Positions 11,469-21,492 of a stretch of 49,887 nucleotides of DNA are shown piece after piece; position 1 is the first letter of the stretch, and the number at the start of each line of letters is the position of its first letter. Both the position numbers and the translations under genes were made by a program. Source of the stretch: Nitrososphaeraceae archaeon (GTDB lineage Archaea > Thermoproteota > Nitrososphaeria > Nitrososphaerales > Nitrososphaeraceae). The DNA lies in the NCBI GenBank assembly GCA_021325295.1, contig JAJPHM010000029.1:1-49887 (forward strand), read 5' to 3'. The notes beneath the pieces were generated by a model. It worked only from the letters and a program-made list of their open reading frames with translations, had not been told where the DNA came from and made no database searches.

Positions 11469-11813
11469 TTACAGGGCGGCTTCGCCACGTTTTTTCGAGC
11501 CAATATCCACTACATCGTCTATATCTGACACAAATATCTTGCCTTCTCCTGCCAGACCTGTGCTTGTGCTGTTGATAATCTTGTCAACCACCTTTTCTAC
11601 CATCGAGTCTTTCACTACGACAACAATTGTCGTGTTCACATTAAACTCTGGAACATAGCTTGATGTACCTCTGCCTGAAAGCCTAGGTGTTCTTGGAATC
11701 TGACCCCTGCCTTTGGAATCGTAGTATGTCAGACCTCCTATGTCTAGTCCCTTGAGCGCATTAAACGCTTCGTCCATTCTGGTTACAGGAATTACTGCTT
11801 CAATTCTTTTCAT
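11469..11813 (-). CDS. PII-family nitrogen regulator, copy 1
   Basis: This 114-residue PII-like protein has the typical N-terminus (MKRIEAVIP), the GRG region before the T-loop, YVPEF at the T-loop base, and the C-terminal GEGKIFVSDIDDVVDIG...KRGE nucleotide-binding segment. PII trimers sense ATP/ADP and 2-oxoglutarate and gate targets such as Amt. The T-loop (residues ~37-56) is rich in Arg/Pro/Ser and lacks the tyrosine that is uridylylated in enterobacterial GlnB. An Amt gene lies 4 kb away and a second PII is at 21151-21492. The start is an ATG with an AT-rich box (TTTAATAAAAG) about 40 bases upstream. Confidence 0.92.
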   Translation of the reverse strand: MKRIEAVIPVTRMDEAFNALKGLDIGGLTYYDSKGRGQIPRTPRLSGRGTSSYVPEFNVNTTIVVVVKDSMVEKVVDKIINSTSTGLAGEGKIFVSDIDDVVDIGSKKRGEAAL

Positions 11814-12310: not shown

Positions 12311-12868
12311 TTGTTTTTCGTGCTGATACCAATAACATTTTTACCATGGAAATTTAGACTTGGTTATAGCAGGGACAAAGTTTTGCGAGTAAATCTTGAA
12401 GCAGATGAGCATATTGTTGCAGCACTTCCGAAGGTATGGGACAATATTGTCGGCTTTGCGGGATTTTTCCATAAAAGCAAGGAAGGTATCCTTGCTCTAA
12501 CTAACAGGAACCTTATCTTCACTCCACAGTACTTTTACATTACTCCAAAGGAAAGAGAAAAATACTTTGGGCAAGACAAGGCCCAGATAACAAAAATAGA
12601 CAATTATTCCGAATCCCAGCTAGACGAAGACATCTCCAAAGAATCAGGCAGCCTGGTTATCCCTCTGAAATCTGTCATTGAAGTCAGTAGCATAAGATTG
12701 CGAAAAGTCAATTTTCTGCGAATTAAATTCAAGACAGACAACAACAAAACAAAGGTGGTTGATTTTGGAATTACAAAGAGTGTGACAAACTATCCTGTGC
12801 GACAACCAATGATTTTTTACAGTATTGATTGGGAACCGTGGGTCAGAATTATCAAAGCTTATACCTGA
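12311..12868 (+). CDS. Hypothetical protein with possible PH/GRAM-like fold
   Basis: This 185-residue protein has a hydrophobic start, then a pattern seen in PH/GRAM-like domains: EGILALTNRNLIFTPQ followed by IPLKSVIEVSSI and a beta-strand pair. That fold often binds lipid or protein at membranes, and here it is inference. The TTG at 12311 or the GTG at 12320 could be the start. No operon partner is obvious. Confidence 0.6.
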   Translation: MFFVLIPITFLPWKFRLGYSRDKVLRVNLEADEHIVAALPKVWDNIVGFAGFFHKSKEGILALTNRNLIFTPQYFYITPKEREKYFGQDKAQITKIDNYSESQLDEDISKESGSLVIPLKSVIEVSSIRLRKVNFLRIKFKTDNNKTKVVDFGITKSVTNYPVRQPMIFYSIDWEPWVRIIKAYT

Positions 12869-12913: not shown

Positions 12914-13411
12914 CTATACACGTGTTCCTTCGCCAGAAAATTTGAGTACCTGCTTGGATCTCTGAACTATAGTGTCTGTGATTGATTCACTTTCTGCCTG
13001 AAATGTCACATTGGTGACTCTTTTTTTGTACTTGAAAATTTCAAGCTCATACGAGTCGTCCTTAGGCCTGTATAATGCAAGACCAAGGTTTGCTGCTCCG
13101 CCATAATCTGATTTGAATCTGGTGTAATGCTCTGACATCTTTAAAGACTTCAAGAAGACCCACTTTGTGTTCAAAATTTTCGAATCACTGTGCAAATAAA
13201 ACTCGTACGATGCAGGATTCTGCTTTTCTATCAATACCATCCTTATGTCAGGGTCAGGCCACCACTTGATGATCTTTGACCAAGTATTGACAAGAGCTCT
13301 TCTGTTATCAAATATCAGAAGCACATTTGGTCGGACATCATGAAAAAAGTATCCGACTCCCATAAAATCCTGGAACAATTCTATATCATGTTCAGTGCTT
13401 GGATTATCCAT
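12914..13411 (-). CDS. Hypothetical protein (165 aa)
   Basis: A soluble alpha/beta-looking protein with no motif I recognise. It contains Trp-rich stretches (WSKIIKWWPDPDIR) and no Cys. The ATG at 13411 is preceded by an AAAGGAG Shine-Dalgarno-like element about 10 bases upstream, so it is probably translated from a leadered mRNA, unlike many of its neighbours. It converges on the gene at 12311-12868 across a 45-base gap. Confidence 0.65.
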   Translation of the reverse strand: MDNPSTEHDIELFQDFMGVGYFFHDVRPNVLLIFDNRRALVNTWSKIIKWWPDPDIRMVLIEKQNPASYEFYLHSDSKILNTKWVFLKSLKMSEHYTRFKSDYGGAANLGLALYRPKDDSYELEIFKYKKRVTNVTFQAESESITDTIVQRSKQVLKFSGEGTRV

Positions 13412-13848: not shown

Positions 13849-14607
13849 GTGAGAAAAGCGGCAAGACCAGTAAACCAGAAGGGGACCTTTATAGATGCTA
13901 TTTACGAATGGTTCTTGCCTAGAAATAGATTCTGGACTCTGGTTAGCGTAGCTACCTTCTGTGCACTTGTTATGCTAGAAGCTTTTTTCATTATTGTAGA
14001 AAGTACTGACCCACAAATCAGACAGAAAATGATTCCCTTGGTATTGAGTTTGATGTTAACCTTTGTTCTGAGTATATTCTGGCGTGGCTCTATTCAGTCT
14101 TTCCTATCAATTGCAGGGACTGGAAGCATGTACTTTGGTATGGTGTTTATCTTATCGACAGCAGCTGGTCACCACGGACTGCAACCCGTCATAGCAAGTA
14201 GGCTAGGCGTAGGAAAGGTCATGGAGCCGGTCCCTCCTGTGCCAATGGCGAACCTGTACTTTCTAATGGGTATTCTTGGCATGGCGCTATGTATGGCAAT
14301 TAGTTTTAAACCATCATTATTCAGAATTAAGGGTCCACAGTTTAAGCTTCCATATCCAGTATGGACTGGCTTGGAAGCCTCAAAATCTGGATCTAGTGCG
14401 ATGCTTATCCCGGTACAGGGATTGCTCAATCCAACAGAGCGCCATTTGATTGCAAAATATAGATACATTGTGGTAAAGATTGGTGGGACAGCATACTTTG
14501 TTTCTCCTGATGACTGGGTGCCTCAAGGATCTTTTGTAGTAAGGGATATGGGATCCGGCTCGCTTCTTGGAATACCAAAATTGCCTGATGGATTCAATAT
14601 GTGGTAG
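13849..14607 (+). CDS. Integral membrane hypothetical protein
   Basis: This 252-residue protein has a basic N-terminus and four to five predicted membrane helices between residues ~30 and ~155. A soluble C-terminal domain of about 95 residues follows (LNPTERHLIAKYRYIVVKIGG...). The GTG at 13849 is the apparent start. It follows a small hypothetical gene by 51 bases. I cannot name a family; the soluble tail may be regulatory or binding. Confidence 0.6.
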   Translation: MRKAARPVNQKGTFIDAIYEWFLPRNRFWTLVSVATFCALVMLEAFFIIVESTDPQIRQKMIPLVLSLMLTFVLSIFWRGSIQSFLSIAGTGSMYFGMVFILSTAAGHHGLQPVIASRLGVGKVMEPVPPVPMANLYFLMGILGMALCMAISFKPSLFRIKGPQFKLPYPVWTGLEASKSGSSAMLIPVQGLLNPTERHLIAKYRYIVVKIGGTAYFVSPDDWVPQGSFVVRDMGSGSLLGIPKLPDGFNMW

Positions 14608-14683: not shown

Positions 14684-15436
14684 CTAAAGGATTGGCTTTG
14701 CCTTTAGCTCGCGCCACTTGCCGCGTGCCCAAAATCCCCATTTCTGCTTGTCTTCTGATGGATAATAACACTTTTCGTTGTGGGGACAATTGATACACCT
14801 ATTTGAAGGCTCAAGTGTCGGAGCTATATTGTTTTTCAGTAGCGTATTAAGGATGCGAGCTCTTCTTGTAGTTTCATTCAGCAGCTTTTCGCTTCTGGGA
14901 ACGACAAATTCCAGCTCATTTCCTTCGGTATCAAAATAGATTATCACGCCTTCTTGCTTGTTAAACATGTGAAGGTATGCATTCAACTGCATGAAATGTT
15001 CGGCAAATGGCATCTCGGGTAGTTCTGCAACACTCCTGAATACCATTACCACCTCGTCCTCAACCCTGTCTGCGCGGCCAACAAGCTTGACACCAGATCC
15101 CGCGTCAATTTCTCCTGTTGCAGGTTTTTCCAGAATGCTGAGAGCTCCTTTTTCGATTATGGTTGCCATCATTTGCTTGTGCGTAGCTTCTTGTGGGTCC
15201 TTTCGATCAAGGTAGGCTCGCCTGAGGCATCCGCTTACCTCATCTATTGATATTTTGCTCTCGTCACCATTTGTGGGATTGATGAGTGAAAAGACCTGCT
15301 CTATTACATCGTAAACATCAACCTTGGGAGGTGCATCGCTGGCAGCTCTATAGTTATCGACGCCTTCTTTGATCTTGTTACGGGCTTTTTCTAAAATTTT
15401 TTCGCTCTGCCTTACAGCCTTTACCCCTGATGACAT
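14684..15436 (-). CDS. Cas4/RecB-like PD-(D/E)XK protein with altered active site
   Basis: This 250-residue protein has the Cas4-like layout: one Cys early (SGCLRRAYLDR), a GRAD motif (VGRADRV, residues ~127-133), a QLNAYLHMF helix, and three C-terminal Cys in CINCPHNEKC. Together the four Cys could hold an iron-sulphur cluster. In active members the strand after GRAD carries E-x-K; here the aligned strand reads VVMVFRS, so the Glu and Lys appear to be replaced. It may bind DNA without cutting it or use other residues. No cas gene or CRISPR array is near. The gene is divergent from amt and shares with it a perfect 84-bp inverted promoter repeat and the N-terminus MSSGV. Confidence 0.75.
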   Translation of the reverse strand: MSSGVKAVRQSEKILEKARNKIKEGVDNYRAASDAPPKVDVYDVIEQVFSLINPTNGDESKISIDEVSGCLRRAYLDRKDPQEATHKQMMATIIEKGALSILEKPATGEIDAGSGVKLVGRADRVEDEVVMVFRSVAELPEMPFAEHFMQLNAYLHMFNKQEGVIIYFDTEGNELEFVVPRSEKLLNETTRRARILNTLLKNNIAPTLEPSNRCINCPHNEKCYYPSEDKQKWGFWARGKWRELKAKPIL

Positions 15437-15504
15437 GCTATCGGAAGTCTGAATGCAACTATAAATACTATTTTATCATAAAAATGATTTTTTATGGTAA
15501 TATG
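15421..15504 (-). repeat. Left arm of perfect 84-bp inverted repeat (Cas4-like promoter)
   Basis: The reverse complement of this segment matches 15692-15775 at all 84 positions by direct reading. It holds the first five codons of the Cas4-like gene (MSSGV), the TATA box at 15460-15465 (26-27 bases from the ATG at 15436) and about 40 bases of upstream AT-rich sequence. Similarity stops sharply at both ends. Confidence 0.95.
15460..15465 (-). promoter_or_regulatory. TATA box of the Cas4-like gene
   Basis: TTTATA on the minus strand, 26-27 bases before the ATG at 15436. It is an exact mirror copy of the amt box inside the inverted repeat. Confidence 0.65.
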
Positions 15505-15691
15505 CCGAAACCCTTTGTGCGTTGCCTGGGCTATTGCGACAATAACCTGCTTTAATATTAATAATATGTGCAAAACGGACAGCATCTCCCTGTAACTTGT
15601 TATTGGCGGAAGCTTGCCTCAGTGTAGTAGCTTGAATATCCCGACAGATTGAAAAAACTGAGTACAAAACAGGTGACATAGTGCCTTGACA
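15505..15691. other. 187-base unique spacer between inverted-repeat arms
   Basis: With the arms, this makes the 323-base intergenic region between the Cas4-like gene and amt. No coding frame, RNA gene or hairpin of note is visible in the spacer. Confidence 0.6.
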
Positions 15692-15775
15692 CATATTACC
15701 ATAAAAAATCATTTTTATGATAAAATAGTATTTATAGTTGCATTCAGACTTCCGATAGCATGTCATCAGGGGTAA
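15692..15775 (+). repeat. Right arm of perfect 84-bp inverted repeat (amt promoter)
   Basis: Mirror copy of 15421-15504. It carries the amt TATA box and codons 1-5. Beyond the repeat the two genes diverge at once: codon 6 is ATG in amt and AAG in the Cas4-like gene. Confidence 0.95.
15731..15736 (+). promoter_or_regulatory. TATA box of amt
   Basis: TTTATA, 26-27 bases before the ATG at 15760. The spacing implies a leaderless amt mRNA. Confidence 0.65.
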
Positions 15776-17277
15776 TGGCCGACCCGTTATTTTCGATGGT
15801 AAAAAAGCACAAGTGGGCAGCAGTCTTTATAATGGCAGGTCTGCTCGTTGGGGTGTCCGGATTCGTTGCAGCTGATACTGCATATGCACAGTTCGGTCCT
15901 CTCAACAAGCTTGCTGATCCAAACCAGACATCAGAGATACATTGTGGACAACCAATGAAGCCGCCGGGCAACACCAGTCAAACATTTGGTGGAAGCATGG
16001 CACCATGTATCGACTCTGGAGATACCACTTTCATGTACACCGCAGCATCATTTGTGATGATAATGACTCCGGGTGGTGTTGGTTTTCTGTACGGTGGTAT
16101 GACAAGGAGAAAGAACTCTCTTACAATCATTCTCCAGAACTTCTTGGTATATTCCATAGTAAGCATCCAGTGGGTCATTTACGGATATTCGATAATGTTC
16201 GGTCCTGATTCTGGAATTGGGCCTGGATTTATTGGCAACCTCGATTGGATAGGGCTAAATAACGTTCAACATAATGCGCCAGCGGACGTTTACGCTCCGA
16301 CAATTCCGCATATCGGCTATGTGATGTTCCAGCTCATGTTCGCAGCTATCACACCGGCACTGACTATAGCAGGTTATGCGGATAGAGTGAAGATGAGTGC
16401 CTTCATGATCTATACAGTACTCTGGAGTACATTCATTTACGACTTTGCAGGACACTGGAACTGGTCTCTCGGAAGTCAAGGCACTCATCCTGGATGGCTA
16501 GCTGCTCTTGGCGCTGAAGACTTTGCAGGTGGAACTGTGATCCACATTACATCAGGGTTCTCAGGTTTAGCTAGTGCAATGATCCTTGGCCGGAGAATGG
16601 GATACGGAAGGGCTCCATTTGAACCGCATTCTATCCCGCTAGTGATGCTAGGTGCAATACTGCTATGGTTCGGGTGGTTCGGCTTCAACCCAGGTAGTGC
16701 TGGCTTTGCAGGGTTGCTTGAGACCCAAGCGTTCCAGAATACAAACCTTGCAACTGCTGTAGCAGCCATGTGGTGGGTATTCCTCAGCTGGGCGCATACA
16801 GGAAAGACAAGTGCACTGGGTGCAACTGCCGGCGCAGTCGCTGGGCTTGTAGCAATCACGCCTGCATCAGGGTTCATTGGCACATGGGCCTCCATAATAG
16901 TAGGATTTGCTTGCGCGACAGGGTGCTTCTATTGTCTGATATGGAAGAACCGCAGAAGAATTGACGATGCACTCGATACTTGGCCAGTACATGGTATGGG
17001 CGGAGTAATCGGAGCACTATTGACAGGTGCCTTCAGCGAAACAAGAATTAACCCATATGGACACAACGGCGCATTCTTTGGAAATCCAATACAGCTAGGA
17101 ATAAACGCAGTAGGAGCAGGAGCTGCATGCATCTGGTCCTTTGCACTTACTGTTGCGATGTGGAAAGCAATGGATGCAGTGTGGCCGGGCGGAGTACGTG
17201 TAACTCCCAAGGAAGAAGAGATTGGGCTAGATATTGCCCAAGTGGGAGAAAGAGCCTACAGCGAAGGCGTCACGTAA
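15760..17277 (+). CDS. amt: Ammonium transporter Amt
   Basis: This 505-residue Amt/Mep/Rh protein takes up ammonium across the cytoplasmic membrane for assimilation or oxidation. A signal-like segment ends near AYAQF (residue ~45), followed by about 11 membrane helices. The channel's twin histidines are seen in GGTVIHITSG and WPVHGMGG, and FYGG-type and DFAGH signatures are present. Between the signal segment and helix 1 is a ~35-residue extracytoplasmic loop with two Cys. The PII proteins in this window are natural partners. The promoter and first five codons are duplicated, inverted, in front of the Cas4-like gene. A hairpin terminator follows. Confidence 0.96.
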   Translation: MSSGVMADPLFSMVKKHKWAAVFIMAGLLVGVSGFVAADTAYAQFGPLNKLADPNQTSEIHCGQPMKPPGNTSQTFGGSMAPCIDSGDTTFMYTAASFVMIMTPGGVGFLYGGMTRRKNSLTIILQNFLVYSIVSIQWVIYGYSIMFGPDSGIGPGFIGNLDWIGLNNVQHNAPADVYAPTIPHIGYVMFQLMFAAITPALTIAGYADRVKMSAFMIYTVLWSTFIYDFAGHWNWSLGSQGTHPGWLAALGAEDFAGGTVIHITSGFSGLASAMILGRRMGYGRAPFEPHSIPLVMLGAILLWFGWFGFNPGSAGFAGLLETQAFQNTNLATAVAAMWWVFLSWAHTGKTSALGATAGAVAGLVAITPASGFIGTWASIIVGFACATGCFYCLIWKNRRRIDDALDTWPVHGMGGVIGALLTGAFSETRINPYGHNGAFFGNPIQLGINAVGAGAACIWSFALTVAMWKAMDAVWPGGVRVTPKEEEIGLDIAQVGERAYSEGVT

Positions 17278-17807: not shown

Positions 17808-18518
17808 TTGAAAAATCGATTGCCACCCAAAATGGTCATGACACCAAGAAAGAAAAGGTACATCATTGCGGCCATTATAGGATCTATTGCAGTTTCCTTT
17901 GCGCTTTATAATGCTGCAATAAGCTTCCCTTACAAAACCACCAAGTTATGGAATTTTGATCAGTACCAGGTAAATTCTCTGCCGGATATATTCTCGGCGG
18001 CACAGATAGGTACTGGCAATCCGGGCAAATGGGCTATAGTGTCTGACCCATCGGCTCCGTCTCCACCCAATGTCCTCGCCAAGATATCTGTTCCACGTTC
18101 CGGATCTGATTACAGCTTACTTGGAGTTTCAGATTCGCCTACTGTAGGAAACGCAAGGGTCAGTGTAATGTTCAAATTAATATCCAATGCAACTAATGAT
18201 GCATCAGCAGGTCTTGTAATCAGGCTCCAGGATAGCTCGCATTATTTTGTCCTGATGGCCGACTCGTACAATAGCCGGTTTTCATTTTGCAGGGCAGATA
18301 CAGGCAAGATACTCTGTACCGAAGACAAAAATGCAGACATTGCAATAGGTCAGTGGCATAACATAACAGCAGACGTCTCTACACAGGGAGTCGCAGGCTA
18401 TCTTGATGGCAACCTGCTACTGCAGAGGTACGATGCTCATTATCAGGATGGTCAGATAGGGCTATGGACAAAAGGAGATTCACAGGTCTACTTTGATAAT
18501 CTCCAGATTCAATACTGA
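17808..18518 (+). CDS. Membrane-anchored/secreted LamG-like protein
   Basis: About 236 residues. A basic N-terminus (TPRKKRY) and a hydrophobic stretch (residues ~19-37) form a signal anchor. The rest is a beta-sandwich resembling concanavalin A/LamG or DUF1080-like folds: AGLVIRLQDSSHYFVLMAD, then GQWHNITADV, YLDGNLLL and GQIGLWTKGDSQVYFDNLQI. Such domains bind carbohydrate; here the ligand is unknown. The TTG at 17808 lies about 23 bases after TTTTATA; ATG 17832 is an alternative. Confidence 0.72.
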   Translation: MKNRLPPKMVMTPRKKRYIIAAIIGSIAVSFALYNAAISFPYKTTKLWNFDQYQVNSLPDIFSAAQIGTGNPGKWAIVSDPSAPSPPNVLAKISVPRSGSDYSLLGVSDSPTVGNARVSVMFKLISNATNDASAGLVIRLQDSSHYFVLMADSYNSRFSFCRADTGKILCTEDKNADIAIGQWHNITADVSTQGVAGYLDGNLLLQRYDAHYQDGQIGLWTKGDSQVYFDNLQIQY

Positions 18519-21150: not shown

Positions 21151-21492
21151 TCAACTTGTCCTGTTCTGGGAGAGCGTGGCTGTATCATATACAGCTATAA
21201 CATTGCAGATGACTATCTTGCCATCACAGGCTGAGCCAGCTTTCATAACCTTCATTATATCGTCCACAATAGGCTTTACTTTTGAATCAGGCAAAAGTAC
21301 CTCGATCTTGGTCCAGGAGCCGAATTCAGGTACATATCTTGTGGCTCCTCTGCCGACACTTACAGATTCCTTTTTCATTCTCCCTCTTCCCTTGACATCG
21401 TAAAAAGTCATACCACTGGCGCCCCTTTTGTGCAAAATTGTGTTAATCTCCACAAGCCGCTCATGCGGAATAATGACCTCAAGCTTTTTCAT
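21151..21492 (-). CDS. PII-family nitrogen regulator, copy 2 (divergent)
   Basis: This 113-residue PII paralogue keeps MKKLEVIIPHERL, GMTFYDVKGRGR and YVPEFGSWTKIEVLLPD at the T-loop base. The C-terminal nucleotide segment has drifted (DGKIVICNVIAVYDTATL) and lacks the basic RxGE end that copy 1 retains (KRGE). Its T-loop is Lys/Arg/Ser rich and again lacks the uridylylation tyrosine. It may sense a different effector or serve a different target than copy 1. The start is an ATG at 21492. Confidence 0.9.
   Translation of the reverse strand: MKKLEVIIPHERLVEINTILHKRGASGMTFYDVKGRGRMKKESVSVGRGATRYVPEFGSWTKIEVLLPDSKVKPIVDDIMKVMKAGSACDGKIVICNVIAVYDTATLSQNRTS

Follow-up and report, generated by a model that had tools for sequence, protein, structure and literature searches.

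In methanogens and in Corynebacterium, NrpR and AmtR, respectively, recognise operators in front of amt and glnK; in these systems a palindromic site is common to ammonium-transporter and PII genes. The NrpR operator has the sequence GGAA-N6-TTCC. To our knowledge, the sensing of ammonium and the response to it at the level of transcription are poorly understood in ammonia-oxidizing archaea, which are major soil nitrifiers. A second group of described systems concerns quasi-palindromes, in which two similar sequences in inverted orientation turn identical and the spacer between them may flip (PMC8604942, PMC7202029). Both outcomes, the homogenization of arms and the inversion of the spacer, have been documented for template switching between inverted repeats in yeast, although on a smaller scale than at the locus described here (PMC8604942). 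This locus resembles both groups. It is found in a draft assembly (GCA_021325295.1; 2.69 Mb, 79 contigs) of a member of the Nitrososphaeraceae, whose genome encodes an AmoA of the archaeal type, identifying this soil archaeon as an ammonia oxidizer; the window, by which we mean the whole stretch of DNA that was analysed, covers 49,887 nucleotides of contig JAJPHM010000029.1. From sequence comparisons, we propose with a probability of roughly 0.6 that a duplicated promoter cassette places the ammonium transporter gene amt and a divergently transcribed gene for a Cas4-like protein under one nitrogen-responsive operator, and that this arrangement arose by the inversion of a gene block and the subsequent copying of one promoter.

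The initial annotation of the window had reported a perfect 84-bp inverted repeat between the two genes, and this was confirmed by sequence comparison: positions 15421-15504 (left arm, minus strand) are the exact reverse complement of positions 15692-15775 (right arm, plus strand), and the arms enclose a unique spacer of 187 bp (15505-15691), in which no credible gene was seen. When one mismatch is allowed, the arms reach 88 bp (15417-15504 and 15692-15779). The left arm holds the promoter cassette and the first five codons of the Cas4-like gene and the right arm those of amt. As described previously for the window, both open reading frames start with MSSGV, and 16 bases lie between the ATG and the end of the arm. 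In sampled stretches of the source genome, other exact inverted repeats reached at most 16 bp when their arms were up to 1 kb apart (approximately 349 kb sampled) and 19 bp when they were up to 3 kb apart (332 kb sampled). Since background inverted repeats reach only 16-19 bp, a chance origin of the 84-bp repeat can be excluded. The annotation had also proposed a search for additional copies of the 84-bp unit, and such a search across all contigs of the 2.69-Mb assembly returned only the two arms. Similarly, the inverted repeat was absent from 60 relatives, in which a DNA search with the arm gave only partial matches of 26-40 bp to its palindromic part; all relatives compared belong to other genera, and the family comprises 70 genomes. 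Four short matches to the arm (in G027, G026, G018 and G036) were located in unrelated places and were attributed to chance similarity between AT-rich DNA and the palindrome. Short inverted repeats that flank a non-coding core are also a feature of small, MITE-like mobile elements, and the arms might be read as the terminal repeats of such an element. However, an element of this type would be expected in multiple copies and with target-site duplications, and we found no further copy in the source genome, nothing but the partial palindrome matches in the 60 relatives and no direct repeats around the locus or at its outer ends. Furthermore, two host genes with no relation to each other have their start codons in the arms, and we give this explanation hardly any credence.

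Read from the inner end outward, each arm consists of a 26-bp imperfect palindrome, TACCATAAAAAATCATTTTTATGATA, followed by 8 bp, the TATA-like box TTTATA, approximately 22 bp and the ATG with four further codons. The inner boundary of the arm lies 5 bp past the palindrome and the outer boundary directly after codon 5. The palindrome, which we regard as a candidate operator, is located at positions 15474-15499 on the minus strand and 15697-15722 on the plus strand, corresponding to -63 to -38 from the ATG of the Cas4-like gene and of amt, respectively. The TATA-like boxes at 15460-15465 (minus strand, Cas4-like gene) and 15731-15736 (plus strand, amt) are centred around 27 bp upstream of the ATG, in agreement with the distance of 26-27 bases given in the initial annotation. 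The palindrome has the consensus TAYCATAA-N10-TTATGATA with the half-site TATCATAA, and the sites in the arms match this consensus at 15 of 16 positions. A strict pattern made up of the operator and the TATA box matches just the two arms in the source genome. The spacing of 8 bp between palindrome and TATA box is also seen at the orthologous amt genes of G022 and G028, while it is 10 bp at a second amt gene of the source genome, located on contig C23, and 21 bp in G025 and G031. Archaeal activators typically bind just upstream of the BRE/TATA region. The position of the palindrome next upstream of the TATA box therefore suggests that it is bound by an activator rather than a repressor, which would distinguish it from the NrpR and AmtR systems, and its sequence, TATCATAA-N10-TTATGATA, differs from that of the NrpR operator.

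One could imagine that the repeat itself is the regulatory device, acting as a cruciform or, through an invertible spacer, as a phase switch. Perfect arms of 84 bp around a 187-bp spacer can in principle recombine or extrude, and the 26-bp operator folds better as single-stranded DNA than shuffled sequences (z -4.4). On the other hand, the 88-base arm as a whole folds no better than its shuffles (z -0.86), and the operator palindrome is found without a long repeat at other amt genes; a gene for a recombinase was not noticed in the immediate vicinity. If the spacer does invert, no effect is expected: the promoters are part of the identical arms and not of the spacer, so that after a flip as before each would face the same gene, and each gene would have the same promoter. 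The recombinational inversion raised in the initial annotation is therefore not supported as a functional switch, and we consider it very improbable that the repeat as such serves as a regulatory device.

The same annotation had suggested that amt and the Cas4-like gene are co-regulated. This is supported by the distribution of the palindrome, which marks promoters of amt and PII genes elsewhere in the genome and in related genera and would thus link the two genes to a common control. Nine sites with up to two mismatches were found in the source genome, compared to two for a reversed control. On contig C23, a palindrome at 235-260 (TAACATAAAGATGAGATTTTATGATA, 15/16) lies upstream of the second amt gene, between this gene and a divergent PII gene, and a palindrome within one mismatch is located upstream of a PII gene on contig C38. 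The sites on contigs C14, C15 and C24 appear to be intragenic. Two PII genes are encoded at most 6 kb away from the amt/Cas4-like locus (positions 11469-11813 and 21151-21492 of the window, both on the minus strand); the palindrome is absent at both and present at the G025 counterpart of the second. Contig C23 (G000, L154) also carries a perfect 16/16 palindrome at 1966-1991, 1.7 kb beyond the site at the second amt gene, which precedes a 62-aa cysteine-containing open reading frame by 63 bp and a gene coding for a CBS-domain plus zinc-finger protein by approximately 120 bp.

Among the relatives, G025 contains four sites within two mismatches, all of which are located upstream of genes for Amt (two sites), PII and a ParB-like protein. 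The probability of finding three of the four sites near amt or PII genes by chance is about 3e-9, assuming upstream windows of 250 bp, three amt genes and six PII genes, the latter count being taken from a previous study (PMC12542715). Across 18 genomes of the same genus, 24 sites within one mismatch were detected, as opposed to one for the reversed control, and for the 15 loci examined in this genus the site was found upstream of amt (4/15), PII (1/15) and ParB (1/15). In G031, sites lie, among others, at a ParB-like gene, at amt, in the PII region and at a multicopper oxidase gene, which we take to be nirK-like. Palindromes matching at 14-15 of 16 positions are also present upstream of amt in G001, G012, G020, G032 and G033. 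The total number of sites is close to that of the control in G012, G021, G028 and G033, and overall about equal to it in the Nitrosocosmicus-like and g5/g7 genomes, so that in these genomes only the amt sites speak for a specificity of the palindrome. In G021, the closest relative by Amt identity, the palindrome is found neither at amt nor at the cas4-like gene, indicating that shared control through the palindrome is not universal. Since amt and PII promoters of several genomes have the palindrome in common and few other sites occur, the palindrome is, judged from its distribution, a good candidate for a nitrogen-regulon operator and in this respect similar to the NrpR and AmtR operators. A palindrome motif of this kind at amt/PII promoters was not found described in the open-licence literature.

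A protein of the ParB family with ParB_N and HTH domains is encoded downstream of a palindrome, which in three genomes precedes its start by around 42 bp (L240 1138-2001 and L241 1167-2030, both on the minus strand; also G011, L280). With the palindrome in front of its own gene, this protein was considered as the regulator, but it was set aside, as no close ortholog is present in the source genome (best identity 40%) or in G021, G022, G033 and G027. The ParB-like gene is therefore more likely to be a target of the regulon.

With regard to the two genes at the repeat, the previous names stand, clearly for amt and with the caveat that the other gene is no more than Cas4-like. The 505-aa Amt protein (15760-17277, plus strand) matches, over its full length, PF00909 with 358.9 bits (cut-off 23.2, E 3.7e-107) and TIGR00836 with 403.9 bits (cut-off 343.3); only distant Amt loci were recovered in a contig search with this protein. 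A possible alternative start of amt is Met6 at position 15775, the ATG of which straddles the end of the arm and adjoins the aligned starts of the orthologs from genus g7. The shared ATG can thus not be taken for granted as the translation start of amt, and in the case of a start at Met6, the five shared codons would be leader sequence in amt. The product of the divergent gene (14684-15436, minus strand) is a protein of 250 aa of the Fe-S type. It is similar to Cas4 (TIGR00372; 4ic1) in that it shows a weak match across the fold, retains D123 and the GxxD motif and possesses the four cysteines expected of the Cas4 Fe-S site (C70, C214, C217 and C223), which are invariant in seven orthologs. 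It differs from Cas4 in that it scores far below the cut-off of TIGR00372 (35.1 bits, cut-off 65) and just under that of PDDEXK_1, and in that the gene kept next to it is amt; a cas gene was not noticed in its vicinity. In addition, IFRR stands opposite the EIKT strand of 4ic1 in the alignment, and the ExK position reads IFR or VFR in 7/7 orthologs, meaning that the PD-(D/E)xK catalytic residues are incomplete. Due to the low score and the absence of ExK, the protein was not filed as Cas4; it is expected to lack nuclease activity, and the term nuclease-like, used in the initial annotation, is too strong.

Comparison of the locus with related genomes, which had also been proposed, revealed that amt and the Cas4-like gene are neighbours in five relatives (G021, G022, G015, G028 and G037) spanning two families, but always collinear and in no case with the repeat; the divergent order is specific to the source genome. 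In G021, whose Amt protein shares 83% identity, the order is cas4(+), h13849(-), amt(+), as compared to h13849(+), cas4(-), amt(+) in the source genome, where h13849 denotes a conserved protein of undefined function (13849-14607, plus strand) encoded convergently with the Cas4-like gene. From the differences in order and strand we infer that the convergent pair was inverted as a block, and the divergent arrangement is most simply interpreted as the derived state. An order found in no relative, in an assembly of 79 contigs, could also point to an assembly or amplification artefact in the form of a chimeric inverted duplication. However, the whole repeat spans 355 bp and is within reach of ordinary paired reads, and each arm runs into a different conserved gene, which is in frame from the shared start. 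A chimera would not normally be bounded by an operator on the inside and by codon 5 of both genes on the outside, making an artefact improbable. Four proteins (12311-12868, 12914-13411, 13849-14607 and 17808-18518), none of which matches an NCBIfam family above the cut-off, accompany amt and the cas4-like gene across two families, although in shuffled order, which suggests a functional neighbourhood around amt.

The promoters of genus g7 (G022, G015, G028 and G034), in which amt and the cas4-like gene are arranged in tandem, provide information on the state before the inversion. Both the amt and the cas4-like promoters bear the sequence TATCAYAAAA approximately 22-23 bp before the TATA box; the cas4-like promoters (4/4) retain only the left half-site, and their likeness to the amt promoters is modest. 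In ungapped alignments over 51 bp, with operator and TATA box in the same register, the arm matches three g7 amt promoters at 34, 30 and 34 positions and four g7 cas4-like promoters at 29, 27, 26 and 32 positions, with a null of 24.2 +/- 1.8 matches that represents random AT-rich DNA and not other promoters; some of the single comparisons are not significant. Within one genome, the amt and cas4 promoters resemble each other with modest p-values of 0.0025-0.013. As the 10-mer is shared at a fixed distance in both types of promoter, common control before the inversion is likely, and the shared control of amt and the Cas4-like gene appears to be older than the repeat. The recent duplication or gene conversion suggested in the initial annotation fits the perfect identity of the arms and the absence of the repeat from 60 relatives, but the shared control itself may be older. 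The g7 amt promoters resemble the arm slightly more than the g7 cas4-like promoters do, and the amt promoter was probably the donor of the copied cassette; in G021, the cas4 and the amt promoter are about equally similar to the arm, and the direction of copying is not settled by this genome.

We propose that the genes were ancestrally collinear, both with a promoter of the palindrome type, as already seen in one genus. Inversion of the block formed by the cas4-like gene and its convergent neighbour in the source lineage would have left two similar promoters facing one another. One cassette, probably that of amt, would then have been copied onto the other, most likely by template switching or gene conversion between these palindrome-bearing promoters, and the same processes may keep the arms identical. 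A dimeric regulator would bind the palindrome, directly in front of the BRE/TATA region, and set both genes to the ammonium or nitrogen state of the cell, so that one nitrogen regulator probably switches both amt and the Cas4-like gene. In comparison with the homogenized quasi-palindromes, which have arms of about 7-16 bp and spacers of up to 70 bp (PMC8604942), the arms of 84 bp and the spacer of 187 bp are large, the copied unit is a whole promoter, and the ancestral state is deduced from other genera only. In the case of a passive origin, the block inversion would have cost the Cas4-like gene its promoter, the gene would have been supplied with a fold-back copy of the amt promoter, and any nitrogen control of it would be accidental. 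The lack of a palindrome upstream of the cas4-like gene in G021, the restriction of the divergent order to the source genome and the perfect identity of the arms, which fits a single recent event, are all consistent with such a by-product. It is harder to reconcile with TATCAYAAAA in 4/4 g7 cas4-like promoters, spaced from the TATA box much as in amt, and with a neighbourhood kept across two families, which points to selected co-expression, and we consider a passive origin unlikely.

Returning to the reading of one operator for both genes, we tentatively speculate that the palindrome is the site of an undescribed regulator of nitrogen, and perhaps also of energy, metabolism in soil ammonia-oxidizing archaea. 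The Cas4-like Fe-S protein, presumably dead as an enzyme, might be a fixed member of its regulon and act together with Amt; a redox sensor or a sensor that binds nucleic acids would be examples of such a role. The two promoters might be kept identical by selection or conversion, so that a fixed protein ratio is maintained. Since the palindrome recurs in several genera at the promoters of amt and PII genes, it makes a concrete DNA bait for the regulator, and the repeat represents a clear natural case in which a promoter, together with the start codons, was copied to a divergently transcribed neighbour. In five genomes of the G025 genus (L281, L283, L284, L285 and L286), the palindrome adjoins a gene for a small CxxC protein starting with MSKTCLKCGK, with the site at position 1501 (737 in L286) and mostly a membrane protein of 78-85 aa encoded on the other side; the CxxC protein gene is presumably a further conserved target of the presumed regulator. 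In L288 and L291, the site at position 1501 is located near an apparent A/V-type ATPase gene cluster, and the presumed regulon may therefore extend to energy metabolism.
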